Shown: in pieces, positions 7,760 to 56,119 of the stretch | Layout of the letters: every line of letters begins with the position of its first letter | How positions within the stretch are numbered: position 1 is the stretch's first letter | From: Brachycybe producta | Taxonomy: Eukaryota > Arthropoda > Diplopoda > Playtdesmida > Andrognathidae | NCBI GenBank assembly: GCA_036925085.1 | Contig: JAUPFP010000031.1 | Span: forward strand, 1,612,001-1,676,000 | Direction: 5' to 3' | DNA length: 64,000 nt | Made by a program: the position numbers and the translations under genes | Notes under the pieces: model-generated | Told to the model about the DNA's origin: nothing | What the model saw: only the letters and a program-made list of their open reading frames with translations | The model's database searches: none

Positions 7760-7769
7760 CTTAAAATAC

Positions 7770-8630: not shown

Positions 8631-8634
8631 TAGC

Positions 8635-9345: not shown

Positions 9346-9389
9346 AATTAAGTCAGAGATGCTCACATCTTGAGAACTCTTAGGGTATA

Positions 9390-9833: not shown

Positions 9834-9839
9834 TCTTAA

Positions 9840-11740: not shown

Positions 11741-11909
11741 AACGCAACATTTTTCTGTGACGTCACTATTCCGTATATTTGCCGTTTGCACCGCACAAAG
11801 TCGCTTATATTTGTAAACCAGACCTTTAAATACATATCTTTAAGAAAATCAAAGTGAAACGCCAACTACAAACACGACATAAAACTTTGAAAATGATGTT
11901 AAATTCTGG

Positions 11910-12275: not shown

Positions 12276-12279
12276 GGCA

Positions 12280-12700
12280 ACCGCAAATTAACCAATCATA
12301 ATCAGTCACTTTGATTTAGATCAAAAGCCATCCAAGAACCAGATACCCAGAGTTCAGTTCTAGAGGCCCAAACACAGAAAGCGTAACCGTTCATTCAACA
12401 TCCAGCCTCAGAGGCCTCATTGAGCCCTCTTGAGGCCAGATGCAGAACGGTGCTACTTCAGTGGAAAAGTTCCAAGACCCAAACTCCATTTCAAAAGGTC
12501 CACCAAAGTGACCCATTCCAACTCTCGAAGGAGGGTTCATGCGTTCGAACCCGGTGTGCGTGCAACCCGATCATTTCCACCCCCCCTTCTCAATCTTCCC
12601 ACTAATAACTGACATGCCAGTGACGTCATGAACAAAATTAGGTGGGTCAATTAGTGTGTGTGTGGTCCACCTTTGTTGGAGACGGGTGGTGTCCGTCCCT
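12280..12700. other. GC-richer island in the long KCNQ intron
   Basis: A patch with balanced base composition next to the candidate exon at 12704. It contains no family member that I recognise and no convincing splice pair of its own. It may be conserved regulatory DNA or an old exon. I cannot tell which. Confidence 0.3.
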
Positions 12701-12703
12701 TAC

Positions 12704-12790
12704 TACGCTGCGAACTGTTCTGAGAGGCTTCACGCTGTAGAAGACCGCACCACGTACTCGTAGCGATACTCTCCGTCGATTGGTTCTCCA
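12704..12790 (-). CDS. candidate 87-bp cassette exon of KCNQ
   Basis: This lies inside the 10-kb intron in an island of higher GC. On the minus strand TTCACAG precedes 12790 and GTAAGG follows 12704. In the phase left by the 17829 exon it reads 28 codons, ENQSTESIATSTWCGLLQRE and on to SSQR, with phase 1 on both sides, so it could be included or skipped in frame. The composition suits the disordered linker it would extend. A second open frame (WRTNRRRVSLRVRG...) is more basic but has the wrong phase. I know no homologue, so this is a splice-signal prediction only. Confidence 0.35.
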
Positions 12791-13164
12791 CTGTGAATTA
12801 CATTCATTTTTTTTACAATTCAGAGAAGAAAACAGATCTTTTCTAAGGGCACTAATTTAATGGCGGTTCGTTGGTTCGATTTACAGGGTTGTCAAATTAA
12901 TATGATTTTTAACTTATTTAGAAAACAAACAAAAAAAAATCGAAAATTAACAATTTTTTTCTCGATTATTTAATTTTTTTTTAAAAAAAATATGCAAATT
13001 AAAATTTTTAATTTAGTTTAAAATTTCTAACAATTGTAATTTAACTTAAATATTTGTAAAATTATTATGCAAATATTTAAATTAAATCTAATGCATTTAA
13101 GATGTTTTTAAAAAAAATAGCTGATTTTGTAACTCCGGTTATTTCTGCAATTTCAGAAAAGCAA

Positions 13165-13370
13165 CACTAGGAAGAAATCGAAATTTTGTTAGAAACTAGA
13201 AAGGTAGCTGAATCACTTAATACTCTTTTGATATTGGTATCATTCAAAATGAACTTTTTTGAAAGAAAAAAAAAGCTTATTTTAAAAGATATATCAAAAT
13301 GAAAATAACTCTAAGTGATTGAATTACCCTTCTAGTTTCTAAAACATATTCTAAACCAGCATAAAGATTA
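13165..13370. repeat. family B copy
   Basis: GAAACTAGAAAGGTAGCTGA on the left and ACCCTTCTAGTTTCTAAAAC on the right face each other around a diverged centre. 12800-13165 is very AT-rich with nothing recognised. Confidence 0.8.
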
Positions 13371-13499
13371 AATTAGTTAAGTAAAATATTCAAAATAAAT
13401 GCAAATTAGCAATTATAATTTAAATTCGTTAAATTAAATTAAATCAAATTGATTTAATTTTTTAAATAAAAAATTAAAGCCGAAATTCAAGAAAAAACA

Positions 13500-13660
13500 A
13501 AGTTTGGCACTTTGAACTTTAACCCTCTGAAGTAAGATTTCTACCTAAATCCTGTTCAAGGATGGCACCCGCCTGTGCTCCGAGAGAATTCAAGTTGAAG
13601 TTCAAGTGCCAAGTTGTCCTTCTTGAATTTGAACCTTAAATGAAAAACAACCCTGTTTTT
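13500..13660. repeat. family Y fragment, inverted
   Basis: CTTTGAACTTTAACCCTCTG and, inverted, CAAGTTGAAGTTCAAGTGCC surround CCTGTTCAAGGATGG. The family forms a tandem array at 56120-57110. Confidence 0.55.
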
Positions 13661-14191
13661 CGTTTTGAATAAGATAAGGGTGCATTCACAAACATCAAGT
13701 GTCGCCAGAAATATAACTTTGAGATATTCTTTCAAACAAATGATTCCAGAATCTACCGGTTCACAAAATTAATAATTAAAAAAACTATATAAATGGCTAA
13801 CACTTGACAATTGTAAAATGCCTGAAATAAGCAAGTGCCAATTTTGTTATGTATAATAGTTTAAAATGAATAATAACAAAAAAAAAAACACAAATCAAAG
13901 TGGCTCAAAACACAAACAGCAACAACAATGACAACAATCTAAGAAAAGCCAGTGCTCAACTATTATTTTAACTAGCTACCTAATTATGTGTGTTTGTGTC
14001 TTATATGTGTGTGTGTGAGAGTCAACTCTCGAGAGTGATCACTAATGCCTGCCTCTCTCTCAACTTCAAATTCAATATATAATGAAATTAATACATTATT
14101 GTGGCTGCGACACTGTGTGTGTGTGTGTGGCTGGGTGGGTGGTGGCGGCGGCGGCGGTGCCTTGGAAAATTTCTCCATCCTAAGACCAGAG

Positions 14192-14398
14192 ACAGGCATT
14201 TAGAAATCGGGACGAACACAAGTTGGCTCCGCCCTTTTTATGACGACCGGCAACTTCTAATTGGTTTGTTGGTGTGGTTCGACGTTGAAAAGGGCGGAGC
14301 ATGTGACGTCAGACTACATAACCAACCAATTAGAAGTTCCCGGTCGTCATAAAAAGGGCGGAGCCAATTTGTGTTCGTCCCGATTTCTAAATGCCTGT
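14192..14398. mobile_element. family A copy 1, about 207-bp fold-back MITE
   Basis: ACAGGCATTTAGAAATCGGG and its complement form the ends, and the element is palindromic apart from the centre. It carries CCGCCC and GGGCGG boxes, ATTGG and CCAAT boxes and a perfect TGACGTCA at 14304-14311. It has no open frame of its own. The (GT)n and (GGC)n stretch just before it (14113-14160) is a separate simple repeat. Confidence 0.9.
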
Positions 14399-14694
14399 AG
14401 GTCAGAGGCGTAAATTAAGCAACAATGCAAGCTTGCAACCAGCAGCAGTCTCTAGCAATTGTTGCTGGTGACAACTACGCTAGCGGCACTTTTACAGTCA
14501 ACAACCGTAGAAAAAAAAACAACTAATCCATTATTTTGAATATCAAGCGCACAAGCATGAGCACGAGTAGTCTGGGCCCAACTTTACAGAACATCTGTAC
14601 AGCTTGTAGAGTAATTATTCAAATTGAAGTTTAAAATTAATTTTCAAAGGCACCTCCCCCCAATTTGCGTGTATGTGTCCGTTTGTATTACGAC

Positions 14695-15267
14695 TAGGGC
14701 TCGGATTTTTATGCAATATCATGCATATTTTTATAAATCTGTGGCTCAAGAGTCAATTATAAAGTATAAACCTCCCATACCTACCTTGTACGCACATGAG
14801 TTAAATGTGTTTAGGTGAATTCTACGGAATCCAGTTAAGGACACGAACCAAATAAAAATTGACTTTATTATTAATATTTTAAATTGTTTATATAATTATA
14901 TTTAAGTATTAACTCAATATTGTCAGATTAATTAACTGAATAAATTGAATTCGACATATTGTTTGTTTGTCCTTCATAGGGCTCTGTAGAAAACGTTTAT
15001 TATTTAAATGCATTTAAATTATCAGGTGTGTGTGTGTAATAGGGTACATTATTAGATCAACCAACAATTTTTTTCAATAAAAAATACTGGTTAGAGGTTA
15101 GAACTTTAGTTAATAACTGATAGTAACCAGACATGTAGCCTCTAACCAGCCTTTATGGTTAGAAAAAGCATAATTGTAGTTGCTCTAATGATGATTACTT
15201 CACAATTGGCACTGGAGCCACAAATTGAGAAACTATTGCTTGACATTGCATAAAAATCCGAGCCCTA
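14695..15267. mobile_element. family E copy 1, interrupted by a family F insertion
   Basis: The left end GGGCTCGGATTTTTATGCAA starts near 14699 and the right end GCATAAAAATCCGAGCCCTA ends at 15267. Between roughly 14785 and 15040 lies a family F element (ACATGAGTTAAATG ... CAGGTGTGTGTGTG), so F inserted into E. Confidence 0.75.
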
Positions 15268-15414
15268 ACTATAACAAATGTTTGCATATTAAAAACATAT
15301 TTTTAAAGCACTTCAAAAATGCAATAAAAAGAAGCAGAAAAATAATAATTAAAAACCAAATTTCATCACACATAACAACATTGTTATAAATTTGTGACAA
15401 CAAAACACAGGCAG

Positions 15415-15765
15415 TTGGGCGCACAGGCAAGTATGCACAGCAGTAAACATTTTGTTGGCCCCGCCCTTTTATGAGCTTCATCAATTTCTAATTGGTTTGT
15501 TACTTGGTCTGATGCCCACATATGCTCCGCCCTTTTCAATTTTTAATTGGTTGATATTTAGTCTGACGCTCATAAAAAGGGGCGGAGCCAACAAGATTTT
15601 ATTGCTGGGTACACTTGCCTGTGTTGAACGCAGCCAGAAAAATTCTGTTAGCCCCGCCCTTTTATGAGCATCAATCAGACCACTAATAAACAGAATCAAA
15701 CACGTAACAAACCTAAATAACCAATCAGAACGACTTTTTCTGGCTGCGCCCAACTGCTTCTCAAC
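15415..15765. mobile_element. family A relative (GCCCCGCCCTTTTATGAGC type), compound
   Basis: An outer pair, TTGGGCGCA near 15415 and TGCGCCCAACTGC near 15745, encloses one element with ends CACAGGCAAGTATGCACAG and ACACTTGCCTGT (15428-15622) and flanking CCCCGCCCTTTTATGAGC arms. It is a diverged branch of family A with the same GC and CCAAT boxes. Confidence 0.65.
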
Positions 15766-16055
15766 AAAACATTGTTTTGAGGAATTTTTTTTGGAATTTG
15801 ATTTTCAGCTAAATGAAAAAAAAAAAAAATGTTTCAGAAATAAAAATTGCTAAAGGTGGACAAAATAAATTATATTAAAAACCAAATTGAAAAGGTGATT
15901 TTAAAATTAACTAATTATGGGAACGGAAAAAAATGTCCGCCTTTTGAAACTTCGCGGAACCGCAACAAAATATAAATAAAACAACACCGAAAAGCAAAAT
16001 ATTTCAAGAGAAAAACCAAAAAAAAAACCACAGAATATGTAATTTGTATATCATT

Positions 16056-16400
16056 TAAGGTGGTTTTTTAAAGTGTAAACGGGTCCTTTTGAAAAACTGA
16101 TTATTCTGTTTTTCAGGTGCAAAATCAAGATAAATTTGATTATGCTTTAAAAAACTAGAAGGGTAGCTCAATCACTTAAGAGTATTTTTTCATGATATGA
16201 TATTTTTCAAAATAAACTTACGTCAGTTTGAAAATATTTTTAAAAAATATTTATGTCTATAAAATACAATTAAGTGATTGAGTTACTCATCTAGTTTCTA
16301 AAAATACTTTCTAGTTTCTTTTAATTTTGCTCTTCTGATGAAAAATAGAATTATCAGGAGAGTTTCTAGAAATCAGCTGGTTCTGAACCCATCTTAATGT
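16056..16400. repeat. family B copy with TTAAGGTGG end
   Basis: It starts TTTAAGGTGGTTTTTTAAAG and has the arms AACTAGAAGGGTAGCTCAAT and TGAGTTACTCATCTAGTTTC. It ends near CCCATCTTAATG. The stretch 16400-16720 is a further diverged relative. Confidence 0.75.
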
Positions 16401-16724
16401 GAAAAGTCCATTCATTTCGAAGTTATGGAAAAAATGTCAAGCAAACTTTTAAAAGAAAATCAAAATTTTGTTTAAAAAGTAGAAAAAGTCAAATTAGCAC
16501 TTCAAATCACTATTTTCATATCAATGGTTAACCAAACAAAGGTTACCCTCCCACCATTTTAGGTATAAATATGATACTTACAAACCTAAAACCTAGAATT
16601 AACTTCTAGTGCATCTTCTAGTTTTTAAGTGGAAATTTAAAAAAAAACTGAACTCCGAACGCCCTTACTGAGATTCTAGTTTCAAACAAACTTTCAAGAT
16701 TCTTTTAAAAGTTATATTTCTTAA

Positions 16725-17335
16725 TTGTGGTTAGTTTTTTTTTTGAAGTGATTGAAACGTGTTGGTCATTTCTAGTCTTTAAGCTTACTATCAGTGGTCT
16801 TATGTGTAAACTTATAACTATTATTATTATTATTAAAAGTGGTGGTGATGGAGGTGGTTGTGTTCGGCAACAAAATATAGATATAGAGAGATATTATCAC
16901 ACGACTTTACACAAAGGATTGATGGGAAGATGAGCACTGGACGTTGGCTCGATGGTCCATCTCACTGGACATGGGACAGTTATCGAACAAACTGTCGAAA
17001 GAACGGACGCCACATGTACTTTATGTTTTCAGAGAGAGAAAGAAAGAGCACATAAAAGAAAACACACAGAGAGAGAGAAAATGAAAATGAAAAATGAAAG
17101 ATGAGAGGGTACATTTTTTTTAAAAAAAACTTTCTTTCGTCCTAAGAACAAAAATTGCCACCAAAAACGAAAAAAAGATCTGCTCGAAACGGACAACGAA
17201 CTGTCCCTTGCACATAACGTTATAAAAAACAAAACACGAACACATCGAAAAGATGGTTCACATTAAGTTGAACTTACTGTTTATATTTACGAAATGTGCT
17301 CCCCATAATGGGGTCAATCGTAAAAAGAAGCAATA
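16725..17335. other. intron sequence with a GC-richer patch at 16925-17030
   Basis: A (TTA)n run near 16820 and a GA-rich run near 17035-17085 flank a patch of balanced composition. The plus strand of the patch is open (GRWLDGPSHWTWDSYRTNCR and on), but no splice pair or homologue is recognised. It is recorded as unexplained. Confidence 0.3.
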
Positions 17336-17339
17336 TTGC

Positions 17340-17695
17340 AAGCGAACGAGCGAATCTACGAAAACACGTATGGAACTTCGTAGAAACATCTTTTAAACAA
17401 AATTCAAAGTGTTTTCGAAACTAAATGAATAAATTAACGAGTTGGTTACTTTTTTTTTATGATGATCTATTTAAAAATAATCGTTTAACGACTGTTTTCA
17501 AATACCGATTTTCGTTTTCGAGCATTATCGGCATTATTAAAGCAATTATATTCAAACAGATCGCAATGAAAAAGTAGTCACTCTGTTAATTTACTATTCT
17601 TGTTTCGAAAACACTTTGAATTTCGTTTAAAAGATGTTTCTACGAAGTTCCATACTTGTTTCTGTAGATTCGCTCGATTTAAATGTCGATTTTCC
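17340..17695. repeat. family B relative with GAACGAGCGAATCTAC arms
   Basis: CGAACGAGCGAATCTACGAA and GGAACTTCGTAGAAACATCT on the left are answered by GATGTTTCTACGAAGTTCC and TAGATTCGCTCG on the right. The inner arms are AAGTGTTTTCGAAACT-type, a variant of the B core in which CTAGAAG is changed. ACGCCATCTAG lies just outside at 17727. Confidence 0.7.
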
Positions 17696-17828
17696 ATACA
17701 ACTCTTATGTACGATGACCAACAGTAACGCCATCTAGAAGCACAATTTGTAAACACAAACCTCGTTCGTCACGAAATCGCAAAAACAAAAAAGATCAGAA
17801 GAAGATTTAAGGTCGTCGCTCTACTTAC

Positions 17829-18037
17829 CGTCCGAGTTCCTTTTGGCGATGGAGTTCTCCGAGTTCTCTTTGGCCACCGAATCCTCGCTGACGCTCGTGT
17901 TGAGACGATTGCCAATGTTTTCGCTGGAAGCATTGACATCAGCCAACCGACTTCGTACCATCGGAGAATGAGTGGACGACTGTTTGTGACGCTTTATGGT
18001 CGGAAGGCGACTTACGAATGAAGCGTTGTGTTTAAAT
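17829..18037 (-). CDS. KCNQ: KCNQ channel, helix A-B linker exon with probable helix B
   Basis: Acceptor GGTTAG|A and donor ACG|GTAAGT. One base completes Ser273, 69 codons follow, and one base remains. It opens FKHNASFVSRLPTIKRHKQS. This resembles the arthropod segment SFKHNASFV-RLPTI and aligns loosely with vertebrate helix B (SFNDRTRFRASLRLK), so I take it as the likely second calmodulin-binding helix. The rest, from LADVNASSENIGNRLNTSVS to the end, is polar, rich in Ser, Asn and Glu, and ends SIAKRNSD. It is probably a disordered linker with phosphorylatable serines. An alternative acceptor GCGAG lies 6 bases upstream but gives the wrong phase. Residues 274-342. Confidence 0.85.
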
Positions 18038-18359
18038 CTAACCTCGCAGAAGAAAAAAAAAAGCCATAAAAATACAAAAAAATTTTTTTTAGAAAAATTT
18101 GGAATTTTTCGTAGAAAAAAATGACAGAAATTATAGAAAAAAAAAAGTGAAACAAAATAAAAGTGTAGGTAGAAAGTTTGTATATACCATCAATTACGAA
18201 AAGCATTTTGGAAGAAGAAGAAGAAGAGAATTTTGTGCATTCGAAAAGATAAAAAAACAAAGAGAACATTCAAAAAAACGATTAAACAGGAATTAAAATA
18301 AATAAAGTGGAAGAAATGTGGATGCAAAATGTTATTTTTTATGCGTGAAATAATTATGA

Positions 18360-18912
18360 TTAGGGCTCGGATTTTTATGCAAAATCAAGCAAACGTTTCT
18401 CAATCTATAGCCCGAGAGAAAATTGTGAAATAATAATCCCGTCTTACGTTTTTTTTTAAATAAAGAATACTGGTTAGAGGCTAGCACTTTCTAGTTGACA
18501 ACTGATAATAACCAAGACATCTAGCCTCTAATCAGCCTTTTTTGATTAGAAAAAAAAAGCATAATTACAGTTAACTCACAATTGTTGGCACTTGGGCCAC
18601 AAATTGAGAAACATTTACTTGATATTTAGGGCTCGGATTTTTATGCAATATCAAGTAACTGTTTCTCAATTTGTGGCCCAAGTGCCAATTGTGAAATAAT
18701 CATCCTCCTCATTACAGCAATCAACAATTATGTTTTTTTATTAAAAAAAGCTGTTTTGAGGCTAGATATCTGGTTACTATCAGTTACTATCGATTGATAA
18801 AAACCAATAATTTTTGGTTGATCTAAACGGGAATTGTTACTTCACAATTGGCTTTTGGGCCACAGATTGAGAAACAGTTGCTTGATAAATGCATAAAAAT
18901 CCGAGCCCTATT
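18360..18912. mobile_element. family E copies 2 and 3, end to end
   Basis: Two elements abut near 18628. Each starts TAGGGCTCGGATTTTTATGC and has the mirrored GGTTAGAGGCTAG / CTAGCCTCTAA and TTGTGGCCCAAGTGCCAATT arms. The second ends with ATAAAAATCCGAGCCCTA. A further TTGCATAACAATTCGAGCCC fragment follows at about 18915. Confidence 0.85.
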
Positions 18913-19129
18913 GATATTGCATAACAATTCGAGCCCTAATTATGATATAGTTATATAACGCGTTTATAGTCGGTATTTCGCGATTAAGTCCGTTATTTAT
19001 CTGTGAACAATTTTGAATACAAATTACAAAAAAAAAGGAGGTCACTAGAAAATGTTGACTGTAAACGCAGCATATATGTAGTGGAAACCCCGCTTAAAAT
19101 GGTTTTATGAACAGCTGATTTTCGAACTC

Positions 19130-19390
19130 TTGATTATTCTTTCTTTTAAGAAAAAAAAACTAGAAAGTGTTTTAGAAACTAGAAAGAGTAGTTCAATTAC
19201 TTAATCGTATTTTTCATGTCGATATCTTTCAAAATAAACTTTTCATAGATAAAGGGGTCATTTGGTCATTTTTCAAACTGACATAAAAGTTTATTTTGAA
19301 AGATAATCAACATAAAAAATACCCTTAAGTGATCGAGTTACTCTTCTAGTTTCTAAAACACACTTTCTAGTTTCTTTTAATTTTTTTTCT
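19130..19390. repeat. family B copy
   Basis: The arms AAAGTGTTTTAGAAACTAGA and ACTCTTCTAGTTTCTAAAAC surround TTTCAAAATAAACTTTTCAT and AAAGTTTATTTTGAAAGATA. It lies in the 3.2-kb intron between the 21242 and 17829 exons. Confidence 0.85.
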
Positions 19391-19404
19391 TATGAAAGAT
19401 CAGA

Positions 19405-19590
19405 GTTCGAGAGGCATTTTCACTTTAAAACGAAATGAAAGAGACCGGAATATTTTTTCGTGTTATTCCTATAATTTTAACCGATATAATGATGGCTGCG
19501 ACCGAAAATATATTTCGTGTTGTTTGATTTTTCGTGTTATCAGTTTTCGTGTTAAAAATTTTGGAGACTTTTTTTTTTCGTGACAAAAGT
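19405..19590. repeat. family N, AACACGAAAA-type inverted repeat
   Basis: Multiple TTTTCGTGTTA motifs with a left CACTTTAAAACGAAATGAAA. The family is seen cleanly as a perfect hairpin at 34250-34345 and again at 29568-29695. Confidence 0.5.
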
Positions 19591-19654
19591 GAAACATTTA
19601 CAAAACAAAACAAAAAAAGCCAATTGGAATCACAAAGATTGTATGAATTTCCAG

Positions 19655-19915
19655 AAACTTAAGTTTGTTTTAAGAAACATGTTTTATAAATATATTCAAA
19701 TTATATTTGAAACTAGAAGAGCGAAAAATTGTTGGCATTTTCGTGAAAATATATTTCAAAATAAAACTTTTTATGTCTCAAGTTTAAAGAAGGCTAAAAG
19801 TAATTATATTATTTTCAGAAGTTGTCATAAAAAGTTTGTTTTTTTAGACATATTTCATGAAAATACTTTTAGCTCAATTTATTTACTATTCTAGTTTCTA
19901 ACAAGTTTTGAATAT
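19655..19915. repeat. family B, diverged copy
   Basis: AAACTAGAAGAGCGAAAAAT and ATTTACTATTCTAGTTTCTA form the arms, with TTTCAAAATAAAACTTTTTA inside. Confidence 0.65.
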
Positions 19916-19964
19916 ACGAAGATTATTTTATTATTTAGTTTGTTCAGTCTAGCATGCAGTTTAA

Positions 19965-20175
19965 AAAGCCTACGAGGCCCAATAGCACGCAAGGTTAAAA
20001 AAGAAGCCCAATATGGTCTGATCTTGTGCAAAAGAGTACGAGGCCCAACAGGTCCAAGAAGCCCATTAGGAAAAAAAGCCCGTATGACCTGGGATTTCAA
20101 AAAGCCCAACAAGACTATGAGGACCACAATTAAGCCCACCACGAGCAAGAAGCCCACTAGAGAGAAAAAGTCCAG
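19965..20175. repeat. family V, GAAGCCCA-rich degenerate repeat
   Basis: GAGGCCCAATAG, AAGAAGCCCA and CAAGAAGCCCACTAGAG recur every 20-40 bp on this strand, the complement of the GTGGGCTTCTTG type at 59770-60220. Confidence 0.5.
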
Positions 20176-20214
20176 AAGGGGAAAAAAAAAGCTCACGATG
20201 AAAAAAATTACAGG

Positions 20215-20635
20215 TGGGACGAATCCTAAATTTTCTCGAATCCGAATCCTAAAGGGTTATCGAATCTCTCGAATCCTTCGAATCTTTCATATAAGAATTT
20301 TATATTATTCATTAAGAAGATACAAATAAATGAAATAATATTAAATATTAAATTATTAATAATAAAAACAAGTGTGGCTTCACTCAGGGGGTCGTCCACA
20401 AGGCGATCCATTGGTGATCCGGATACCACCGAAATTGAAACAATCGCCCGTTTTTTTTTATTAGTGAACGCTTCTATTGGACGTCAATGGCGTTAAAACT
20501 AGTTTTACCAAAGTTTTTAACAGTTTTTTTAATGTTTAGATTCGAAAGATTCGAAAGACAAAAAAAACGCAAAGATTCGCCTTTTCGAATCTCGAATATT
20601 TTTCAAGATTCGCAGGATTCGAATGTTCCATCCCT
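20215..20635. repeat. inverted repeat of CGAATC / GATTCG clusters
   Basis: GAATCCGAATCC, CGAATCTCTCGAATCC on the left and AGATTCGAAAGATTCG, AAGATTCGCAGGATTC on the right pair across about 250 bp. Family V sequence follows to 20790. Confidence 0.6.
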
Positions 20636-20925
20636 AAAAAAAACAAATCATGGAAAACGCCCATGGGTCCAAAAAAAAAGCTCTTGGCTTTGACATTCCA
20701 AAGGCCCGCCAAGCATATGCGGCCCATAAAACCCATCAGGTACAAGAAGCCCACGAGAGAAGAAAGCCAGCCTTCAACGAAATTACCCGAACCCAAACCC
20801 AAACCTCGTGTTAAGTGAATTCCGTAAAAGTAAAATAAAAATGTGAAAGAATGTATTTTTTGTAAAAATGAAATGAGATGAAAACAGGGGTTGAAGGTGC
20901 TCGTAATTTCTTTGTTTGTACTTAC

Positions 20926-20973
20926 AGAAGACTCCCCGAAGCCGAGGGAGGTTCCTTTTCCGATTTATCTTTC
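20926..20973 (-). CDS. candidate 48-bp cassette exon of KCNQ
   Basis: I infer this possible small exon from splice signals alone. A T-rich minus-strand tract ends TTAAAG before 20973, and GTAAGTAC follows 20926. Read in the phase left by the helix A exon, the 48 bases give one completing base, 15 codons reading KDKSEKEPPSASGSL, and two bases. Length and phase (2 in, 2 out) allow it to be included or skipped without shifting the frame. Small optional exons at this place after helix A are known in the KCNQ family, but I have no homologue of this peptide. It could be chance: the acceptor AAAG is weak. Confidence 0.4.
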
Positions 20974-21117
20974 CTTTAACCAGACAAACCAAAACAAGAT
21001 ACAGAACCACAACAATTATGACATAAAAAAGACACAACAAATGGCAACAAGAGCAGAAAACAAAAAAAAAATGTCACAACAACAGCATTTGGCATAAAAT
21101 AACAACAAAAACAACCA

Positions 21118-21138
21118 ACGACGACGACGACGACGACA
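21118..21138. repeat. (ACG)n microsatellite
   Basis: Six to seven perfect ACG units lie in the intron just upstream (in plus coordinates) of the helix A exon. Confidence 0.9.
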
Positions 21139-21241
21139 AGAATCACAATGCACAAAGTGACTTTTTCTCAAGAAAAGAAGAAATGAAAAGTAGAAAAAAC
21201 AAAACGGTTTCCGTAAAAAAAGAGAGAATCGAGGAACTTAC

Positions 21242-21426
21242 GATGGTGGACTCGGTAACGGAACCAAATGGATCTTCCAAGTGGCCACAGAAACAGAATT
21301 CTCGTCTGCAGCGTAACACCTCCAAAGGCATTGGATGAGAGTGGCGGCCGGAGGACGACGTCGGATCATGTGTTTCTGACGTTGCTGTTGTTGGACTTTC
21401 AGTGCAAAGCCAGAACCCAAAATACC
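21242..21426 (-). CDS. KCNQ: KCNQ channel, exon with end of S6 and calmodulin-binding helix A
   Basis: Acceptor CCACAG|GGT and donor ATC|GTAAGT. The 61 codons plus two bases begin [20 protein letters not shown], the cytoplasmic end of S6 and the basic post-S6 segment (a PIP2 region in the family). [20 protein letters not shown] follows. That is helix A with its IQ-type calmodulin-binding motif. [21 protein letters not shown] closes the exon in a form I associate with arthropod KCNQ. Open frame to the right of 21426 and left of 21242 is intron. Residues 212-272, with Ser273 split. Confidence 0.95.
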
Positions 21427-21702
21427 CTGTGGCGCGTTAATTATTAAAGTCGTATTCGAGTTCGTTAAAAAGAAACCAAACTTATTATACAAATCAGAAA
21501 AAAAAATTCCTAAAACACAGAAATTATGCTGTTTTTTTGTGTTTCTTGCAGTATTTTCTACAGATTTGGAAAATTGTAAAGTTTCTGAGAAATTTAGCGA
21601 AATTTTAAAAATATCCGCGGGGCAGATTCAGTGAAATTTGGAGAAGTCCTTTACGGACCGGATAAAATCAGGGCAAGGCCCAATGTGGCCAGTACGTTGC
21701 AC

Positions 21703-21910
21703 ACAGGTATTTAGAAATCGGGACGAACACAAGTTGGCTCCACCCATTTTTATGACGACCGGCAACTTCTAATTGGTTTGTTGTATGGTTCGACGTTGAA
21801 AAGGGCGGAGCATGTGACGTCAGACTACATAACCAACCAATTAGAAGTTGCCGTTAGTCATAAAAAAGGGCGGAGCCAACTTGTGTTCGTCCCGATTTCT
21901 AAATGCCTGT
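21703..21910. mobile_element. family A copy 2 with perfect 9-bp target duplication
   Basis: ACAGGTATTTAGAAATCGGG ... TTTCTAAATGCCTGT, flanked on both sides by ACGTTGCAC (21694-21702 and 21911-21919). It is inserted in the intron between the pore and helix A exons. The CRE, GC and CCAAT boxes are kept. Confidence 0.92.
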
Positions 21911-21929
21911 ACGTTGCACATGTATGCAT

Positions 21930-22280
21930 GTTTTAGAGCATTTAAATATTTTTAGACTTTCGGCCGTTTTTTGTTGTTGAAAAAAGCCCAAACTGCAGAC
22001 AAGACTTGGTTTGGATCCATTTTTCGAATTTTTTTAAATTTCTTGAATCCTTATGCTTTTCCAAGCTTTTTGGGGACTTCTGGGGCCAGTTGAGCTTTCC
22101 TGAAACATTCTTAGAGCTTTTAGAGCATTGAAATATTTTTCGTCTTTTGGCCGTTTTTTTTTTAAAAAAAAGCCAAAGACCCATATTTTTTAATTTTAAA
22201 ATTTCTTGAATCCTTATGCTTTTCCAAGCTTTTTGGAGACTTCTGGGGCCAGTTGAGCTCTCCTGAGGCATTTTTAGAAC
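21930..22280. repeat. family U, two tandem units
   Basis: TTGAATCCTTATGCTTTTCCAAGCTTTTTGG-type sequence occurs twice, about 170 bp apart (near 22043 and 22210), each with GGCCGTTTTTT and GGGGCCAGTTGAGCT. It reaches nearly to the pore exon. Confidence 0.7.
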
Positions 22281-22505
22281 TTTTTATTGCAGGTCAGATT
22301 TAGTGAAATGTGAAGACGACCTCACGGGCCAGCTAAAATCAATGTGAGGCCGGATGCGGCCCATATATGTTGCACATGTATGGTTTACTACAAGTTTCTT
22401 GTAGATTTTTGCAATTCTGTACATTTTTCTACAAGGTAGATTATATGTTTTTTTGCAACTTTCTTGCAGATCTCTGCGCTTTAGGACAACTTTAACGTAA
22501 CTTAC

Positions 22506-22616
22506 AGCAGGCAATGCAAAAAGAGATATTCCTAGAAGAGCACAGAATGCACCGATGAGTTTTCCTGGCCACGTTTGTGGTACCACATCTCCGTACCCAA
22601 CGGTACACAACGTTAT
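22506..22616 (-). CDS. KCNQ: KCNQ channel, exon with selectivity filter and S6
   Basis: Acceptor ATCTTAG|ATA and donor GCT|GTAAGT. The 37 codons start [20 protein letters not shown], which contains the K+ selectivity filter TVGYGD (residues 179-184). They continue [17 protein letters not shown], most of S6. The PAG gating hinge of S6 is split by the intron: Pro-Ala end this exon and Gly starts the next, the normal arrangement when read through. A longer open frame runs on past the donor into the intron and is not coding. Residues 175-211. Confidence 0.96.
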
Positions 22617-22675
22617 CTAAGATAATTTTATTTTATTAGTTCGTAAGTATTTCGAAAAATTTTATGTTTGTCTAT

Positions 22676-23099
22676 AAAGCCTCGTTTTCACGGTGGCGAC
22701 AGTTCTATCATGAGAGTAGCTGTCATGAAAGTTACGGATAGTTCACTGTCTCACGATAGCAACTGTCTACACGTCTTGAAGTAACGTGATAGTTGTCTGT
22801 CACATGACAGTGTGACGTCTTACTTCACAGATATCATTGAGTCAACAACAGTGTTGCCTCTCTCTCCCTCCAGAAGCCAAAATTCCCTACAAAGTGGATA
22901 TTTCCCTACACAAGTGGTCAACTCAACAACTATTCCTATATTGCGACAGTTGCTATCAACTATCTAGTCAAACGAGATAGTTGTGATAGTCACTATCGCA
23001 ACAGTGTGATAGCGACTATCATGTGGTCTTCACGATGACAGTTCTCGCGATAGTTGCTACTCTCATGACAGCAACTATCATCGTGAAAACGAGGCTTAA
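22676..23099. mobile_element. family I copy 1, long fold-back with GATAGTTGCTGTCATGAG
   Basis: The ends AAGCCTCGTTTTCACGGTG and CATCGTGAAAACGAGGCTTA are complementary, and most of the interior pairs. A second copy with the same ends lies at 58206-58635. It is in the intron between the S5 and pore exons. Confidence 0.8.
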
Positions 23100-23405
23100 G
23101 AATATGGAAAAAGAATCGATACTTTACTAGTATCGATATTTTCCTTTTTATATCGATATTTTTTATTTGATACTTTTCTTTCGATACTGTCATGGTATCG
23201 ATACTCTTCTTCCGATACTTTTGCGGTATCGATATTCTTCTTTAGATACTTTTTCGTGATAACGATACTCTTCTTCGATACTTTCGCTGTATTGATACTC
23301 TTCTGATACTTTTGTGGTATCGATACTTTTTCTTTCAATACATTCATGGTATCAATATTCTTTCTTTCGATACATGTTATGCGTAAAGTATCGATACTTA
23401 ATCCG
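23100..23405. repeat. degenerate tandem repeat TATCGATACT
   Basis: About nine units of roughly 32-38 bp, each with GGTATCGATA and CTTTCGATACTTTT. The unit is itself partly palindromic (TATCGATA). Confidence 0.75.
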
Positions 23406-23514
23406 TATTTGTCTGTTAAGTTTTTAAGCTGGGTTCCCACTGACATCTTTTCTGGTTAATTTTTTTTTTTTATAATTCCCGATCCAATAAGTTAAAAAAA
23501 CAATTGGTTCTTAC

Positions 23515-23643
23515 CACTCCCCACCATAAGGCCTGAGCAAAATTTCCAAAATCTTTCTCGTTCGAATCTTTTTCAGCTAAATAAACTAAGAAGGATGAAA
23601 AAATGAGGCCTAAAAATCCTATGTACAAAGTCGTGATAAGTTC
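23515..23643 (-). CDS. KCNQ: KCNQ channel, exon with S5 and pore turret
   Basis: Acceptor TTCTTAG|GAA and donor GTG|GTAAGA. The 43 codons begin [20 protein letters not shown], which is S5. They continue [23 protein letters not shown], the turret and the start of the pore helix with its WW pair. The S5 wording is close to human KCNQ1 ([17 protein letters not shown]). The residue before YIGF is Leu where neuronal KCNQ2-5 have the Trp used by retigabine. Both ends are in phase 0. Residues 132-174. Confidence 0.96.
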
Positions 23644-23767
23644 CTAAGAAAAGATAAAAATCACAAATATTATCAATATCGTTTAAAGTTGAATTGAAAT
23701 GTTTTTTTTTATAAAACTCATGAATATTCTACGTTTTTTAAAATAATTATTAGTAAAAAATCGAAAG

Positions 23768-24287
23768 TACGGAGCCCTGTAAAGGACAGGCAAGATTTTT
23801 TTTTTATATCTAGAAATTTCGACTTTAATCTCGGCATTTCGACTTTAATCTCGAAATTTCGAATGACGAGATTAAAGTCGAAATTTCGATATTCTGGAAA
23901 AAGTCGAAATGTCGAGATTAAAGTCGAAATGTCGAGATTAAAGTCGAAATTTCGAGATTAAAGTCGAAATGTCGAGATTAAAGTCGAAATGTCGAGATTA
24001 AAGTCGAAATGTCGAGATTAAAGTCGAAATTTCGAGATTAAAGTCGAAATGTCGAGATTAAAGTCGAAATGTCGAGATTAAAGTCGAAATGTCGAGATTA
24101 AAGTCGAAATTTCGAGATTAAAGTCGAAATGTCGAGAATCTGGAAAAAGTGGAAATGTCAAGATTGAAGTCGAAATTTCGAGATTAAGTCAAAATTTCGA
24201 GATTAAAGTCGAAATTTTGAGATTCTGGAAAAAGCGGAAATGTCGAGATTAAAAAAAAAGCTCGCATGTCCTTTACAGGGCTCCGTA
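23768..24287. mobile_element. family D copy 2, filled by a 20-bp minisatellite
   Basis: TACGGAGCCCTGTAAAGGAC and its complement are the ends. The interior from about 23870 to 24250 is built from some 17 units of AAAGTCGAAATGTCGAGATT, with alternating TTTCGAG and GTCGAG variants, and the palindromic core found in other D copies is gone. Confidence 0.85.
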
Positions 24288-24448
24288 CGAAAGCGTTTTA
24301 TATACTAGAACGGATATATCTTTCAGTTACTCTTCTAGTTTCTAAAATACTTTCAATTTTTTCATAATGTTTCTTCTGAAATATATAAACGATTTTTTTT
24401 TATTCGGCGTTTTAACGATGCGCGTCTTTTTGTTTTTCGTTTCGTTAC

Positions 24449-24624
24449 CTGCCGATGTGCATAAACGACCGAACCGAGTAACTTCCAAGTTCCTCCTCGT
24501 CGGTCCATCCGAACCATTCGAAGGATCTGAAAAAATCGAAGGCCACGAAGCGCCGAGGCAGCAAAAACCTGCCCACTGCTTCCCATGGCTAGCACCACGA
24601 TCGAGGCTACTATCACTATGGAAT
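24449..24624 (-). CDS. KCNQ: KCNQ channel, exon with S3 and S4 voltage sensor
   Basis: Acceptor GAACAG|AT and donor CAG|GTAACG. Two bases complete Asp73, then come 58 codons. [21 protein letters not shown] is S3 and the S3-S4 turn. [18 protein letters not shown] is S4, the voltage sensor, with regularly spaced arginines, and the Gln in place of the third arginine that is typical of [20 protein letters not shown] is the S4-S5 linker. This is the most conserved exon of the gene and makes the family assignment certain. It ends in phase 0. Residues 74-131. Confidence 0.97.
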
Positions 24625-24744
24625 CTGTTCGAAACGAAAAATAGTTCAATTTAAACGATTTTTAATTTTAAAAGTTTGATGTTTTTATTGAAATGAGCTG
24701 ATTTTTGAACTTTCGAATTTAATTCTTGTCTTTTTCAGAAGAGC

Positions 24745-25015
24745 AAAATTAAAGAGAAACTTGAAAAAGTGTTTTAGAAACTAGAAGGGTAACTGACTCA
24801 ATTAATTTCATTTTCATGTTAATATCTTTCAAAATAAACTTTTTAGAGACCAAAAATTTAACAAATATTGTCTGTTTAAAATTGAATCATTTTCAAATTG
24901 ACATAAAAAGCTTATTTTAAAAAATATCAACAAGAAAATAGCATTAAGTGGAGTCAGTTACCCTTCTAGTTTTTAAAACACTTTTTCAAGTTTCTCTTAA
25001 TTTTGTTTCCGAAAG
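24745..25015. repeat. family B copy
   Basis: The arms GTTTTAGAAACTAGAAGGGT and ACCCTTCTAGTTTTTAAAAC, with the usual AAATAAACTTTTTAG inner arms. It is in the intron between the S2 and S4 exons. Confidence 0.85.
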
Positions 25016-25044
25016 ACAATAAACTGAATTCAAACCACCTTTAG

Positions 25045-25330
25045 AAGGAATTAAGGGTGTTCAACAAACGAGCAACTTTAAGTGGTCGATATGAACTGCA
25101 AAAAGTGGTCGGCGTGTGGCCGAAACCGACCTCTGAAGTCGACTGCCAACTGTTTGGGCAGTTTGTTCAAATGTAGTTTAATAAACTACATGAAGTCGAC
25201 TCTAATAGTCGGTTTTGGCTAGACTCCGACCACTTTTTGCAGTCCATATTGACCACTAAAAGTCGCTCGCCAGTGAACGCTCTTGAGCCACAAAAGTCGC
25301 TCGCCAGTGAACGCTCTTGAGCCACAAAAG
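25045..25330. repeat. family K copy 2, plus a perfect 34-bp tandem duplication
   Basis: TTTAAGTGGTCGATATGAAC is answered by CCATATTGACCACTAAAAGT, with GTCGACT arms at the centre. At the right end a 34-bp unit (AAAAGTCGCTCGCCAGTGAA...) is present twice without a mismatch, near 25257-25326. Confidence 0.7.
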
Positions 25331-25379
25331 TGAACATCTGAAACCTTTTAACTGATTTAATTTCAAAAACATTTCTTAC

Positions 25380-25506
25380 CTATTATACAAAATGGCCGCC
25401 GCAAGAATTTTAACCTTCCCAGCATTCCCTGATATCGTGAGCGACATCCGGACGACCACAACCGGAACATGTATTCGTTTCCGAACCATATTACAACAAC
25501 TAGTTC
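25380..25506 (-). CDS. KCNQ: KCNQ channel, exon with S2 and S2-S3 linker
   Basis: The acceptor is TTTCAG|GAA and the donor is ATAG|GTAAGA. The exon has 42 codons plus one base and starts ELVVVIWFGNEYMFRLWSSG. It runs through the very conserved CRSRYQG-LGRLKF-RRPFCII segment, that is S2, the S2-S3 cytoplasmic loop with its basic cluster, and the start of S3. The glutamate in WFGNEYMFRLW lies where S2 supplies a countercharge for S4 arginines. The basic loop is a known PIP2-contact region in the family; that part is inferred by homology. Residues 31-72, with residue 73 (Asp) split across the next intron. Confidence 0.95.
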
Positions 25507-25564
25507 CTGAAAGTTAAAAATAAAACATTTCTTCTTAAAATGTTTTAGAAACAGAAAATCAATA

Positions 25565-25825
25565 AACTAAGAAAAAAATTGAAAGTGTTTTTAGAAACTA
25601 GAATGGCAACTCAATCCCTTTATATATTATTTTCATGTTGTTCATCTTTCAAAATAAACTTTTTATTAGACAATAATTTTAAAAAAAAATATCGTCTACT
25701 TAAAAAGTTGGGTCAGTTTCAAACTGATATAAAAAGTTTATTTTGAAAGATATGACCATGAAAGTACCATTAAGTGATTGAGTTACCCTTCTAGTTTCTT
25801 AAAACAAACTTCCAAGTTTCTCTTA
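25565..25825. repeat. family B copy
   Basis: The arms GTTTTTAGAAACTAGAATGG and ACCCTTCTAGTTTCTTAAAA, in the 3.6-kb intron after the S1 exon. Confidence 0.8.
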
Positions 25826-25911
25826 ATTGAATATATTCAGAAGCAAGTCTGAAAATCAATTCAAAATGTATTGTTTAAACAATTGGCAATTTTTTGAAAA
25901 ATAAGGCCATG

Positions 25912-26100
25912 ATTGTCAAGCCGGGATTGACAAACTAGGACTGTCAAGCCGGAATTGACAAACTAGGATTGTCAAGCCGAGATTAACAAACTAGGATTGT
26001 CAAGCCGAGATTAACAAACTAGGATTGTCAAGCCGAGATTGACAAACTAGGATTGTCAAGCCGGGATTGACAAACTAGGATTATCAAGACGAGATTGATT
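25912..26100. repeat. 28-bp minisatellite
   Basis: About six and a half units of GATTGTCAAGCCGGGATTGACAAACTAG type, with variants GAGATTAACAA. 26100-26600 is AT-rich with nothing recognised. Confidence 0.9.
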
Positions 26101-26610
26101 TGTAGCTTTGCAATTGATATAGTCGAAAGCAAAGATTGAAACAATAATAAAAGTTCAAATTGAATAAACTGAACAATCCAAACAAACGACCAATTTTCGG
26201 ATTAAAAATCTTAAGATTGTCAAGCCTAGATTGATCGTCTTTAACTGGCTTAAAATAAAAAAACCCCATAGGTCTTTGTATTTTGTACGTTCTTAGAATT
26301 CAATTATTATAAAATTTAAGATTGTGGTATTTTTTTTTACGGTTGAGAAAATCGACAATAAATTTGTTATTTGTTTTTTTCTTAGAGAAGAAGGTTAAAA
26401 AAGATGGCGTCTGTCCAAAGTGTCACCAAAATCCTCATCAATTTTTATATAAAAAAAGACCATAAAATAAAAGCTAAACTTTGTAATTGATTGATGTAAA
26501 AAAAAAACAGTTGCCAAAAAAACCCCCAAAAAACCCCTTTTAAAAGTTTAAGATTCATTTTATTTCTTCAACAGAAAATAAAAGAAAAATTGCTACATTT
26601 GAAAACTCCG

Positions 26611-26614
<4 letters not shown>

Positions 26615-26689
<75 letters not shown>
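26615..26689. repeat. (TC)n microsatellite
   Basis: A nearly perfect run of about 37 TC units. The downstream 60 bases are mixed pyrimidines. Confidence 0.95.
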
Positions 26690-26697
<8 letters not shown>

Positions 26698-26757
26698 TCC
26701 TGTCCATCTTTCACTCGCTCTATTTCTCTTTCCATCTCTCTCTCTCTCTCTATTCTC

Positions 26758-27220
26758 TACGGAGTCCTGTAAAGGACATGCGAGATCTTTTTTTCAATCT
26801 CGACATCTCGAAATTTCGACTTTTTCCAGAATCTCGAAATTTCGACTTTTTCCAGAATCTCGAAATTTCGACTTTTTCCAGAATCTCGAAATTTCGACTT
26901 TTTCCAGAATCTCGAAATTTCGACTTTTTCCAGAATCTCGAAATTTCGACTTTTTCCAGAATCTCGACATTTCGACTTTAATCTCTACATGTCGACTTTT
27001 AATCTTTTTTATTCTGCTAAGTTAATTATGTCATGTTGTGCGCACCATACTCTTAATAATTAAATTATTGCTGCTACAAGAGGGCGCTTGCAATAATTTA
27101 ATTATTAGAGTAAAATAGATTAAAAGTCGACATGTAGAGATTAAAGTCAAAATTTCGAGATTAAAGTCGAAATGTCGAGATTTTAAAATAAATCTTGCTT
27201 GTCCTTTACAAGGCTCCATA
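26758..27220. mobile_element. family D copy 3 with a 26-bp minisatellite
   Basis: The ends TACGGAGTCCTGTAAAGGAC and CTTTACAAGGCTCCATA. The left arm holds about six units of a 26-mer (AATCTCGAAATTTCGACT and TTTTCCAG). The palindromic TTAATTATGTCATGTTG core is kept, and its loop carries AGAGGGCGC (27079-27087). Confidence 0.85.
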
Positions 27221-27224
27221 ATTC

Positions 27225-27610
27225 TCTATCTCTCTCACTCTCTCTCTCTCCTCTCTGTCAAACTCTATCTCTCCCTTTCTAATTTATTTTTTTCTCTCTG
27301 TCCATCTCTTTATCTCTCGATTTTTCTCTTTTAAAAGTCCATCTTTCACTCGCTCTATTTCTCTTTTACTCTTTCGCTCTGTTCTTTCTCTCGGTCTAAC
27401 AATCTCACTCATTCGCTATATTTCTCTGTCCTTCTCTGTATTTTTCTCCATCTATCTCTCCTTCATTAACCATCTTTCCGTCTACCTATCTATCTTTCCC
27501 TCTCTCTCTCTCTCTCTGCCTTTTTCTTTTCCTCCATCGTCCTCTGTGTACATCTTTCACTCGCTCTATTTCTTATTTCTTTCTACATCTACTGTATCTA
27601 AATATCACTC

Positions 27611-27646
<36 letters not shown>

Positions 27647-27756
27647 TTGCCCTCTTCCTCTCCTTTTCTCGCTCTCTTTTTCCCGTTTTCTCTTTCCCCT
27701 CCTTCTTTCGCTCATTGTCCGTCTCTCTCCCTAGCTCTACCTCTCTTTCACCCACC

Positions 27757-27787
<31 letters not shown>

Positions 27788-27840
27788 CATCTCTCACTCG
27801 GTCTATTTCTCTTTCTTTCTCTCTCTCAACCAGAAAACAT
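27225..27840. repeat. pyrimidine-rich tract with (TC)n runs
   Basis: Over 600 bases of almost only C and T on the plus strand, with TC microsatellites at about 27495-27520, 27608-27640 and 27758-27781 and the recurring phrase CATCTTTCACTCGCTCTATT. The open frames on both strands are compositional artefacts. 27840-28110 is plain AT-rich. Confidence 0.85.
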
Positions 27841-28114
27841 GAATTATGTTTTACGATGAGATAAAAACAAATAAATAAAAAACCGGCCAACAAAACAAAA
27901 TGTAATAAAAAACTAGAAAGAAAAAAAAAGCCATTACGAAAATTGGCATTGACTATTAATGGACTAGGTATGTTTTCAAATGGGCCACAAGGGCCCCACC
28001 CACCTTTGTAAACCAAAACAAAAAAAAAAAGAAATCAAAAAAGAGCAACATCAAACAGAAATTTATAGTTTGTTAGAAAGTAGAATAGCAACGACACGTT
28101 ATACCTAGTACACT

Positions 28115-28420
28115 CACCTGATTAATTTAAATGCATTTAAATAATAAATATGTTTTACAGAGCCCTGTAAAGTACAAACAAACAATATGTCGAATTCAAT
28201 TTATTCAGTTAATAATCTTAAAATATTGAGTTAATACTTAAATATAATATAATAAACTATTGACAAAATATTGATTTAGTATTTCAATTTTTAATATATT
28301 AATAATAAAGTCAATTTTTATTTGGTGTTCATATCCTTAAATGGCTTCCGTATAATTCACCTAAACACATTTAATTTGAATTCATTTAACTCATGTGTGT
28401 GTGTTGATTTTGATTACACA
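28115..28420. mobile_element. family F copy 2
   Basis: TTTAAATGCATTTAAATAAT ... GAGCCCTGTAAAGTACAAAC ... ACTCATGTGTGTGTGT. It corresponds in reverse to the F insertion at 14785-15040 and directly to the copy at 39820-40800. A G homopolymer follows at 28455-28467. Confidence 0.75.
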
Positions 28421-28771
28421 CTGTAAATATAGCATGGAATTGTTGTGTGTGTGTGGGGGGGGGGGGGCTCTTGAAATTTCAATAAAAGTCGTTGTAAAAA
28501 TAATAAATATGTTAATTTTGCGTTTCAACTAAGATTTTCTATTATAGAAAATGTCGTTCTAAAATAAAACCCCTATTTTGCCGCCCAAACTTCTTAAAAC
28601 TTCTTCCAATTTTCGGAACCATTTTCGAAGAGTGAATCTCATAATTTCCTATCTGAGAGTATCATTCATAAAACCATATTTCCTGATAGTTAACTCTCAA
28701 AAATGGTCAAAAAAACTCTCTCTCTCTTATCTCAGGCTTTATCTCTCTCTTTCTCTACCACTCACTCAAAT

Positions 28772-28973
28772 GCAATTAGAAATCGGGACAAACAGAAGTT
28801 GGCTCCGCCCTTTTTATGACGAACGGCAACTTCTAATTGGTTGGTTATGTAGTTTGACGTCACATACTCCGCCTTTTTCAGCGTCGAACCACACAACAAA
28901 CCAATTAGAAGTTGCCGATCGTCATAACAGGGGCGGAGCCAACTTCTGTTTGTCCCGATTTCTAATTGCCTGT
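28772..28973. mobile_element. family A copy 3
   Basis: GCAATTAGAAATCGGGACAA ... GATTTCTAATTGCCTGT. The left ACAG is lost, and CTCAAATG flanks both sides. TGACGTCA is at 28855-28862. It lies about 170 bp on the 3' side of the S1 exon, inside the following intron. Confidence 0.88.
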
Positions 28974-29138
28974 CTCAAATGCATAGCAGGTTTTTTTACC
29001 TCTGCCCCTTGATGATGGGCAATCACACAAAACATTAAAAAGCATCAATTTTTAATTTATTCAAGAAAAAAATATTTATTAATTTAATAAAATTCAATAT
29101 TCTTATTAAATAAAGAGAAGATAGGAAGAAGAACTTAC

Positions 29139-29229
29139 CATATTGAATAGAATTTCACTGGCTAATGTTTCGTAATCTTTAATTGTTGAGAACACACTCA
29201 GCACCAGACATAGAAAAACCATGAAAAAT
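29139..29229 (-). CDS. KCNQ: KCNQ channel, exon with S1
   Basis: This is the first recognised exon of a Kv7-type voltage-gated K+ channel on the minus strand. A T-rich tract ending TTTGTAG precedes base 29229, and a GTAAGT donor follows 29139. The exon opens with one base that completes a split codon, then gives 30 codons reading FFMVFLCLVLSVFSTIKDYE and onward to LFNM. This is the hydrophobic S1 helix followed by the conserved FSTI-(E/K)-DYE extracellular turn of KCNQ proteins. It ends in phase 0 and joins the S2 exon. No start codon or N-terminal exon was found upstream, up to base 64000, so this is an internal exon. I number the visible protein from its first full codon, which makes this exon residues 1-30. 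Confidence 0.9.
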
Positions 29230-50560: not shown

Positions 50561-50598
50561 GGTTTAAGAATGCAAGTAGATCATTTATTTTGTGTGTG

Positions 50599-55180: not shown

Positions 55181-55659
55181 CTGAAAGACAGAACACAATC
55201 AGAATTCAACGCTTGAAAAACGTCTTAAAATAAATCTGTAAACTAATAATATGTACAGGGTGTTAAAGAAATATCTCGACCACACTATTGAAGCATCCTG
55301 TACGTTAATACTTTGCGATGAAACCTTAATTTAGGTGCGCGAGGCCTCATAAAAGTAATCAATGTGTTTTGAGAGAGAAAAAGACGCCAATAGAATTTTA
55401 GTTCTCAGTTGCAACTAGTTGAAGCGTCATTAAAACGAGACTTAACTCAATTAAGAAGGGTGGAAAACATCAAGAGTAGAAAAAAAAAAAAAGAAACTAG
55501 AATGTGTACAGACATCAAATTGAAGGCCCTGATTAGGCCTCCCTTTCAATTTAAATCTATAGACAACTCCACCCACTCAATTTGCTTTTCCACACAACCT
55601 ATTTAAGTTTATTTGTGTTTGAAAAAAAAACCCAAAATAAAAGAAAGTAAAATCTCAGC

Positions 55660-56024
55660 AGGTGGCGCTTCTTTTGATTACCCTCCTCCTCCTTCCTCCG
55701 CCCCCATGCAAAGAACTCATTTAGCTAATTCAGGACAATTATATAGATAGAAAAAGATGTTTGGATTTGTTCCAAAACAAAATTAAATTAGAAAAACAAA
55801 ACCTATGGTGAAAACATACACCCTCTAACAACATATGCGCCACCTACTGAGAGACTTCAATTATATTTAGATCAAAGTAACAATTAGATTTTTTTTATTA
55901 AAGAAAACTTTGTTCTGTAAATGTTTAATATAGATGGCGCTGATTAGGAAGATAAGATATATCTGATCAGTTAACTTTAATAAGCTGATAGCATTTTTTG
56001 ATAATAAAGCAGTCAGCGCCACCT
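55660..56024. promoter_or_regulatory. cluster of four CTCF-like cores in convergent pairs
   Basis: AGGTGGCGC at 55660-55668 (+), the reverse at 55837-55845, AGATGGCGC at 55932-55940 (+), and AGGTGGCGC reversed at 56016-56024. Extended to the 14-bp CTCF consensus CCASYAGRKGGCRS, three of the four have a single mismatch (TCAGCAGGTGGCGC and TCAGTAGGTGGCGC types). The function is inferred from motif only. They may instead be transposon ends. Confidence 0.4.
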
Positions 56025-56119
56025 GCTGACAAATATGCTGTTAAACTCTTTAATTTTCCCTTTTACCTTTGAAAGTCAAGTTTTTCTTGACCTGACTTTT
56101 CTTCAACTTTTAAATTTAA

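Follow-up and report, generated by a model that had tools for sequence, protein, structure and literature searches.

Probable clustering of CTCF-type sites within intron 1 of a KCNQ gene in the millipede Brachycybe producta

Introduction

Closely spaced CTCF sites have been described at the mouse Epha4-Pax3 boundary, where, in the excerpts of the source used here (PMC9279147), six divergent sites lie between two domains and show redundant cooperation, an individual site may count for more than number and orientation, and the divergent orientation is not strictly required. For flies, the portions of the literature drawn upon report that CTCF resembles its vertebrate counterpart in binding and gives one known insulator its insulating activity (PMC2749850), that its motifs are similar to the vertebrate one (PMC3491045), and that the motif is enriched at a small fraction of boundaries only (PMC5768762). 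For a small annelid, the part of the account cited gives the CTCF motif as the commonest in open chromatin, where it is mostly single and located in promoters (PMC7854359). Literature searches that combined CTCF motifs with transposons or with arthropods returned nothing on point among the matches listed, and those on the 9-mer AGRTGGCGC, in either orientation, returned only other subjects among the matches listed.

In this work we analyzed a 64,000 bp stretch of the B. producta genome (the window; C31:1612001-1676000 of an assembly of 295.3 Mb in 442 contigs), which carries four such cores within 365 bp. The locus has several CTCF-type sites close by and in both orientations, as has the Epha4-Pax3 boundary in the excerpts cited above, but it differs in that its sites are four, lie within 365 bp of one intron and form convergent pairs. 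Compared with the CTCF sites of bilaterian animals (consensus CCASYAGRKGGCRS) it is alike in the core AGRTGGCGC, in three of four 14-mers with at most one mismatch and in the presence of a CTCF orthologue in the genome; it is unlike them in a T at position -5 of three sites and in the lack of a flank match in one. The reading that we favor, and hold to be rather probable, is that CTCF-type recognition sites are clustered here in the first intron of a KCNQ gene, in DNA that is apparently single-copy.

Results

Four cores and their flanks

An earlier note on this DNA had placed AGRTGGCGC at 55660 (+), 55837 (-), 55932 (+) and 56016 (-), forming two convergent pairs that span 186 bp (55660-55845) and 93 bp (55932-56024). 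These positions, orientations and spans were all correct. The sites and the cluster that they form are as follows.

55655..55668 (core 55660-55668), plus strand: CTCF-type site 1, TCAGCAGGTGGCGC, 1 mismatch, flank score 3.06
55837..55850 (core 55837-55845), minus strand: CTCF-type site 2, TCAGTAGGTGGCGC, 1 mismatch, flank score -0.23
55927..55940 (core 55932-55940), plus strand: CTCF-type core 3, AATATAGATGGCGC, poor flank, 4 mismatches, flank score -2.2
56016..56029 (core 56016-56024), minus strand: CTCF-type site 4, TCAGCAGGTGGCGC, 1 mismatch, flank score 2.77
55660..56024, no strand: the cluster, which finds only itself in the genome and is flanked by two tandem arrays

The core AGRKGGCRS is matched by all four sites. 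The assertion that three of the four lie one mismatch from CCASYAGRKGGCRS also holds, the mismatches being 1, 1, 4 and 1 in order of position, and the sole mismatch of 55660, 55837 and 56016 is a T at the first position (-5). The same three have the upstream flank CCASY with at most one mismatch in the 14-mer, from which 55932 differs at four positions. Seven places in the window, both strands included, are within one mismatch of the 14-mer CCASYAGRKGGCRS; 20 first-order Markov sequences had 0 or 1 such place apiece.

Flanks were scored with a profile trained on 49 representative sites from contig C1, for which the median score is 2.93. The scores of 55660 and 56016 are close to this median; that of 55837 falls between the 10th and 25th percentile of the representatives, slightly above the random median, and that of 55932 is below the 25th percentile of random flanks. 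Because of these scores we class two of the four sites as typical (55660 and 56016), one as weak (55837) and one as poor, with the core only (55932).

Density and chance

Thirteen exact copies of AGRTGGCGC are present in the window against 0.10 expected (mean of 100 dinucleotide shuffles; maximum 1), and 12,096 places are present genome-wide, compared with 2,228 for its reversed form. Across the 264 kb that was analyzed, composed of the window with 50 kb to its left and 150 kb to its right, 46 sites correspond to 174 per Mb, the genome-wide figure being 41 per Mb, and the cluster at 55660-56024 is the only group of four within 365 bp. Such a group arose in 32 of 20,000 uniform placements at the site density of the 264 kb, and a uniform density would predict about 0.006 of them for the entire genome. 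It should be noted that clumping is common in the 264 kb, with 16 neighboring groups of two and five of three within 365 bp, largely via repeats; since sites clump generally, the uniform null overstates the surprise of the cluster. Given four sites, the order +,-,+,- has a chance of 1 in 16, and thus orientation adds little. The four-site cluster is genuine and not a product of chance; it is ordinary in kind and unusual in density.

A CTCF orthologue in the genome

A CTCF orthologue was found at C16:1697722-1699045 in three collinear pieces which are 61%, 71% and 44% identical to the human fingers, an orthology that rests on best match and collinearity, many other zinc-finger genes matching less well. 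Among solved structures, CTCF is the top match to the middle piece (E 1.6e-64). Recognition by a zinc finger depends on the residues at helix positions -1, 2, 3 and 6. These are the same as in human CTCF in finger 4 (ESKR) and finger 5 (DYKR); an intron interrupts finger 3, which would read TGER given the splicing that we infer. Fingers 6 (QNSA against human QGTM) and 7 (RTDI against RSDV) are kept in part. The remaining fingers diverge further, and fingers 1 and 2 read KYLR and TASN against human RSNR and TTLN. An orthologue with the human recognition residues in fingers 4 and 5, and in finger 3 across the predicted intron, supports the assignment of the cores to CTCF. A dense zinc-finger gene array was also seen at C33:1892118-2082424, with dozens of matches to CTCF-like fingers in about 190 kb.

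The flank of the core genome-wide

The core preceded by CCASY (CCASYAGRTGGCGC) occurs at 411 places in the genome, whereas the control ACCYSAGRTGGCGC, in which the same core follows the same flank letters in another order (ACCYS), occurs at 15; simple composition predicts about 21 places for CCASYAGRTGGCGC by our own arithmetic. The 411 places include repeats, such as four units 77 bp apart on C3. The G form CCASYAGRGGGCGC is present at 73 places and reversed at none, and 38 of the 73 read one 14-mer, CCACCAGGGGGCGC, and may be one family. A non-consensus GCACY flank is also frequent, with 27 of 100 among the places listed of the SCACY pattern (337 places). SCACY overlaps CCACY and is hence unsuitable as a control, for which reason ACCYS was used instead.

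When flanks were grouped and one representative per group was retained, the favored letters were C (-4), A (-3) and either pyrimidine (+9). Two sets of representatives were used: the first had 29 of 75 sites, one of 76 having been dropped because its flank was short, and the second had 49 of 116, after the removal of two from 118. The sets overlap, the sites of loci L031-L050 being common to both, and the grouping is by single linkage, which over-merges. The C1 sample consists of 93 short stretches around 100 listed plus-strand places, with 101 plus and 17 minus sites, and is a convenience sample from the first 2.7 Mb of one contig. Among the 49 representatives +10 A and +11 C, which are outside the 14-mer, are enriched as much as the CTCF positions. 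The enrichment of the flank is independent of the core and supports a CTCF identity of the predicted sites. The CTCF-like nature that had been proposed for the four cores is thus backed both by the orthologue and by the genome-wide enrichment of a CTCF-type flank.

Genomic setting

4777..29210, minus strand: KCNQ voltage-gated potassium channel gene, exons downstream of intron 1 (tblastn and Pfam)

Seven tblastn matches to KCNQ were obtained on the minus strand (29145-29210, 25381-25506, 24455-24625, 23512-23643, 22506-22616, 21268-21432 and 6380-6604), together with a match to Pfam KCNQ_channel (E 3.8e-28), and an ORF at 4777-5592 probably encodes the C-terminus. The first coding exon, ending ...RRLQSKIYNFLERPRGCRAVTYHVIV, is outside the window at window coordinates ~109470-110288. 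Assuming that every exon was found, the cluster thus lies in intron 1, which measures about 80 kb; it is located within the intron of one gene and not between genes. Tandem arrays are present on either side of the cluster, at 54483-55164 (169-bp period) and 56153-57088 (72-bp period). Rfam gave no match in the window at gathering thresholds.

Repeats that carry the core

The repeat F1 is about 375 bp long and contains a convergent pair of AGATGGCGC, the two copies being 267-348 bp apart. In six copies inspected, TTAA was present near the left end in four, near the right end in five and near both in three. A genome search with F1 produced 1,634 first-look candidates; 40 of these were scored, and the matches listed number 41. 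One of the end motifs of F1, AGRTGGCGCCACTAGCC, has 828 exact copies genome-wide. The copies in the window, and those beyond it in window coordinates, are as follows.

50564-50938: F1 copy, in window
52274-52676: F1 copy, in window
65458-65861: F1 copy, beyond window
68617-68986: F1 copy, beyond window
79563-79927: F1 copy, beyond window
83497-83871: F1 copy, beyond window
86832-87188: F1 copy, beyond window

The window sites 50606, 50886 and 52608 belong to F1, and the core is also carried by the families F2, F4 and F5. In the C1 sample 77 of 116 sites shared a group with at least one other, a figure inflated by the over-merging of the grouping.

Sixteen neighboring pairs of sites lie within 400 bp of each other in the 264 kb, of which nine are convergent, six tandem and one divergent. 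The nine convergent pairs are composed of five F1 copies, two palindromic double cores and the two pairs of the cluster itself. Because repeats in this genome produce convergent pairs, convergence is no sign here of an insulator or loop anchor, and the doubt raised by the earlier note, that the pairs might be the ends of transposons, was sensible for this genome. The repeat-borne CTCF-like cores of F1 and others have AGATGGCGC cores and convergent pairs as does the cluster; unlike them, the cluster finds only itself and has no significant match to six repeat profiles.

Are the pairs the ends of transposons?

The proposal that the two inter-site segments are short transposons ending in AGRTGGCGC found no support. 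When both were searched with their flanks against the genome, each had one match at E up to 0.001, the query itself, in a search which skips very common words. No target site duplication was found at the core ends of pair 1 or pair 2, a weak test since none was found either at the approximate ends of an F1 copy; the outer pair has a 2-bp GC, and pair 2 has AATAT at a 7-base offset, a match no longer than chance would give. Pair 1 has flanks that are inverted and not direct, as a motif predicts, and an inverted match of 24 nt at 83%, with no clear extension past the motif. The profiles of F1, F2 and F4-F7 gave no significant match to the cluster (the window scan reached 4.7 bits with E 1.3): even with E up to 100, F1 gave nothing from 55400 to 56250, and F2 and F4-F7 gave only weak matches there, of at most 4.7 bits with E of at least 1.3 (window scan) or at least 0.017 (851-base scan). 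Two of these weak matches extend beyond the core (F2 at 55614-55668 and F6 at 55989-56029).

The 14-mer TCAGYAGGTGGCGC, which is common to sites 1, 2 and 4 (55655, 55837 and 56016), has nine copies in 295 Mb, three of them within 375 bp here. At the other six places the flanks are unrelated to the cluster beyond the motif and short extensions of it (19 of 20 bases at L137 and 21 of 23 at L139). Transposons that end exactly at AGRTGGCGC are not supported for the cluster, in view of the self-only matches, the flanks and the unrelated surroundings of TCAGYAGGTGGCGC elsewhere.

Discussion

Alternative explanations

The cluster might be the decayed remnant of one or two transposons with short terminal inverted repeats that included AGRTGGCGC, old and now single-copy. 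Convergent AGATGGCGC pairs are a hallmark of F1 in this genome, the outer sites have TCAGCAGGTGGCGCT in common in inverted form, sites 1 and 2 have TCTCAGYAGGTGGCGC in common, and a third of all TCAGYAGGTGGCGC copies are within the cluster. Set against these features are the self-only matches of both segments, the silence of the repeat profiles, the unrelated flanks at the six other TCAGYAGGTGGCGC places and, as a weak test, the lack of target site duplications at the core ends, and we regard such a remnant as unlikely. The distribution of TCAGYAGGTGGCGC itself speaks against a dispersed element, and also against wholly independent origins of the sites; its enrichment here could reflect either local copying of short segments or selection that favors a single variant. 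Local micro-duplication, in which one CTCF-type site was copied over a few hundred bases to leave near-identical sites without a function as a cluster, would account for a 14-mer so rare in 295 Mb being common to three sites. Outside the motif, though, the flanks of the four sites have no clear homology, the best of 12 comparisons being attained in 22, 36 and 42 out of 300 shuffles, and we find this origin quite improbable.

A different factor with a related motif, for example YY1/Pho, could also be considered. The YY1/Pho motif is AAGATGGCGGC, and YY1 needs a CCAT core. The AGATGGCGC of 55932 resembles a YY1 site, but the other three sites read GCGCCACCT, without CCAT, for which reason YY1 was rejected at these three, and the flank genome-wide is of the CTCF type; assignment of the sites to another factor is very improbable.

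Taken as a whole the cluster resembles ordinary single-copy CTCF sites more than it does transposon ends. Little credence can be given for now to a broader scenario, namely that F1, F2, F4 and F5, which are apparently unrelated, spread CTCF sites, often as convergent pairs or as the double core AGRTGGCGCCAYCT, while the cluster in the KCNQ intron is a locally grown boundary outside repeats.

Possible role

Were the favored reading of CTCF-type sites in single-copy intronic DNA correct, CTCF would be expected to bind the two typical sites 55660 and 56016, probably also 55837 and perhaps not 55932. Several molecules bound side by side could then turn this part of the intron into a robust architectural or cis-regulatory element free of nucleosomes, which might, for example, limit which intronic enhancers reach the KCNQ promoter. 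Such an enhancer-limiting or architectural element would be the likeliest role of a multi-site intronic cluster, and a loop anchor is one possible role. If bound, the locus would offer a compact test of whether CTCF sites packed closely together can insulate within a long intron, in an invertebrate that is not among the usual models. Of greater importance than the cluster may be the genome-wide result: the CTCF core is strongly over-represented, in large part on repeats, which bears on the spread of CTCF sites outside mammals.

Other occurrences of the core

Several further arrangements of the core were observed. The palindromic double core AGRTGGCGCCAYCT, in which two overlapping and opposed CTCF-type cores make up one 14-mer, is present at 201 places genome-wide; it was seen in L031, L044, L048, L049 and others, and the cases in the C1 sample mostly belong to F2. 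The repeat F4 at window positions 29348-29501 is a short palindromic repeat with ends GCATTGGTTTATATAGGAAAGTG and its complement and with AGATGGCGC near its center, and further copies are at C1 376157, 376277 and 1622235. An F1-like hairpin at 2925-3072 has two opposed weak-to-moderate matches to the F1 profile (E ~1e-8) around site 3017. At 469-698 two inverted 105-nt arms with 85% complementarity enclose a 20-nt gap that holds AGATGGCGC at 582. A self-complementary repeat of about 207 bp (L134 116-320) gave dozens of match rows in the 264 kb among those listed, up to two per copy. Tandem units with one CTCF-type core each were found as three units 66 bp apart at window coordinates 69366-69506 (L016), and as four units 77 bp apart at C3:1145608-1145852, where the cores read CCAGTAGATGGCGC.
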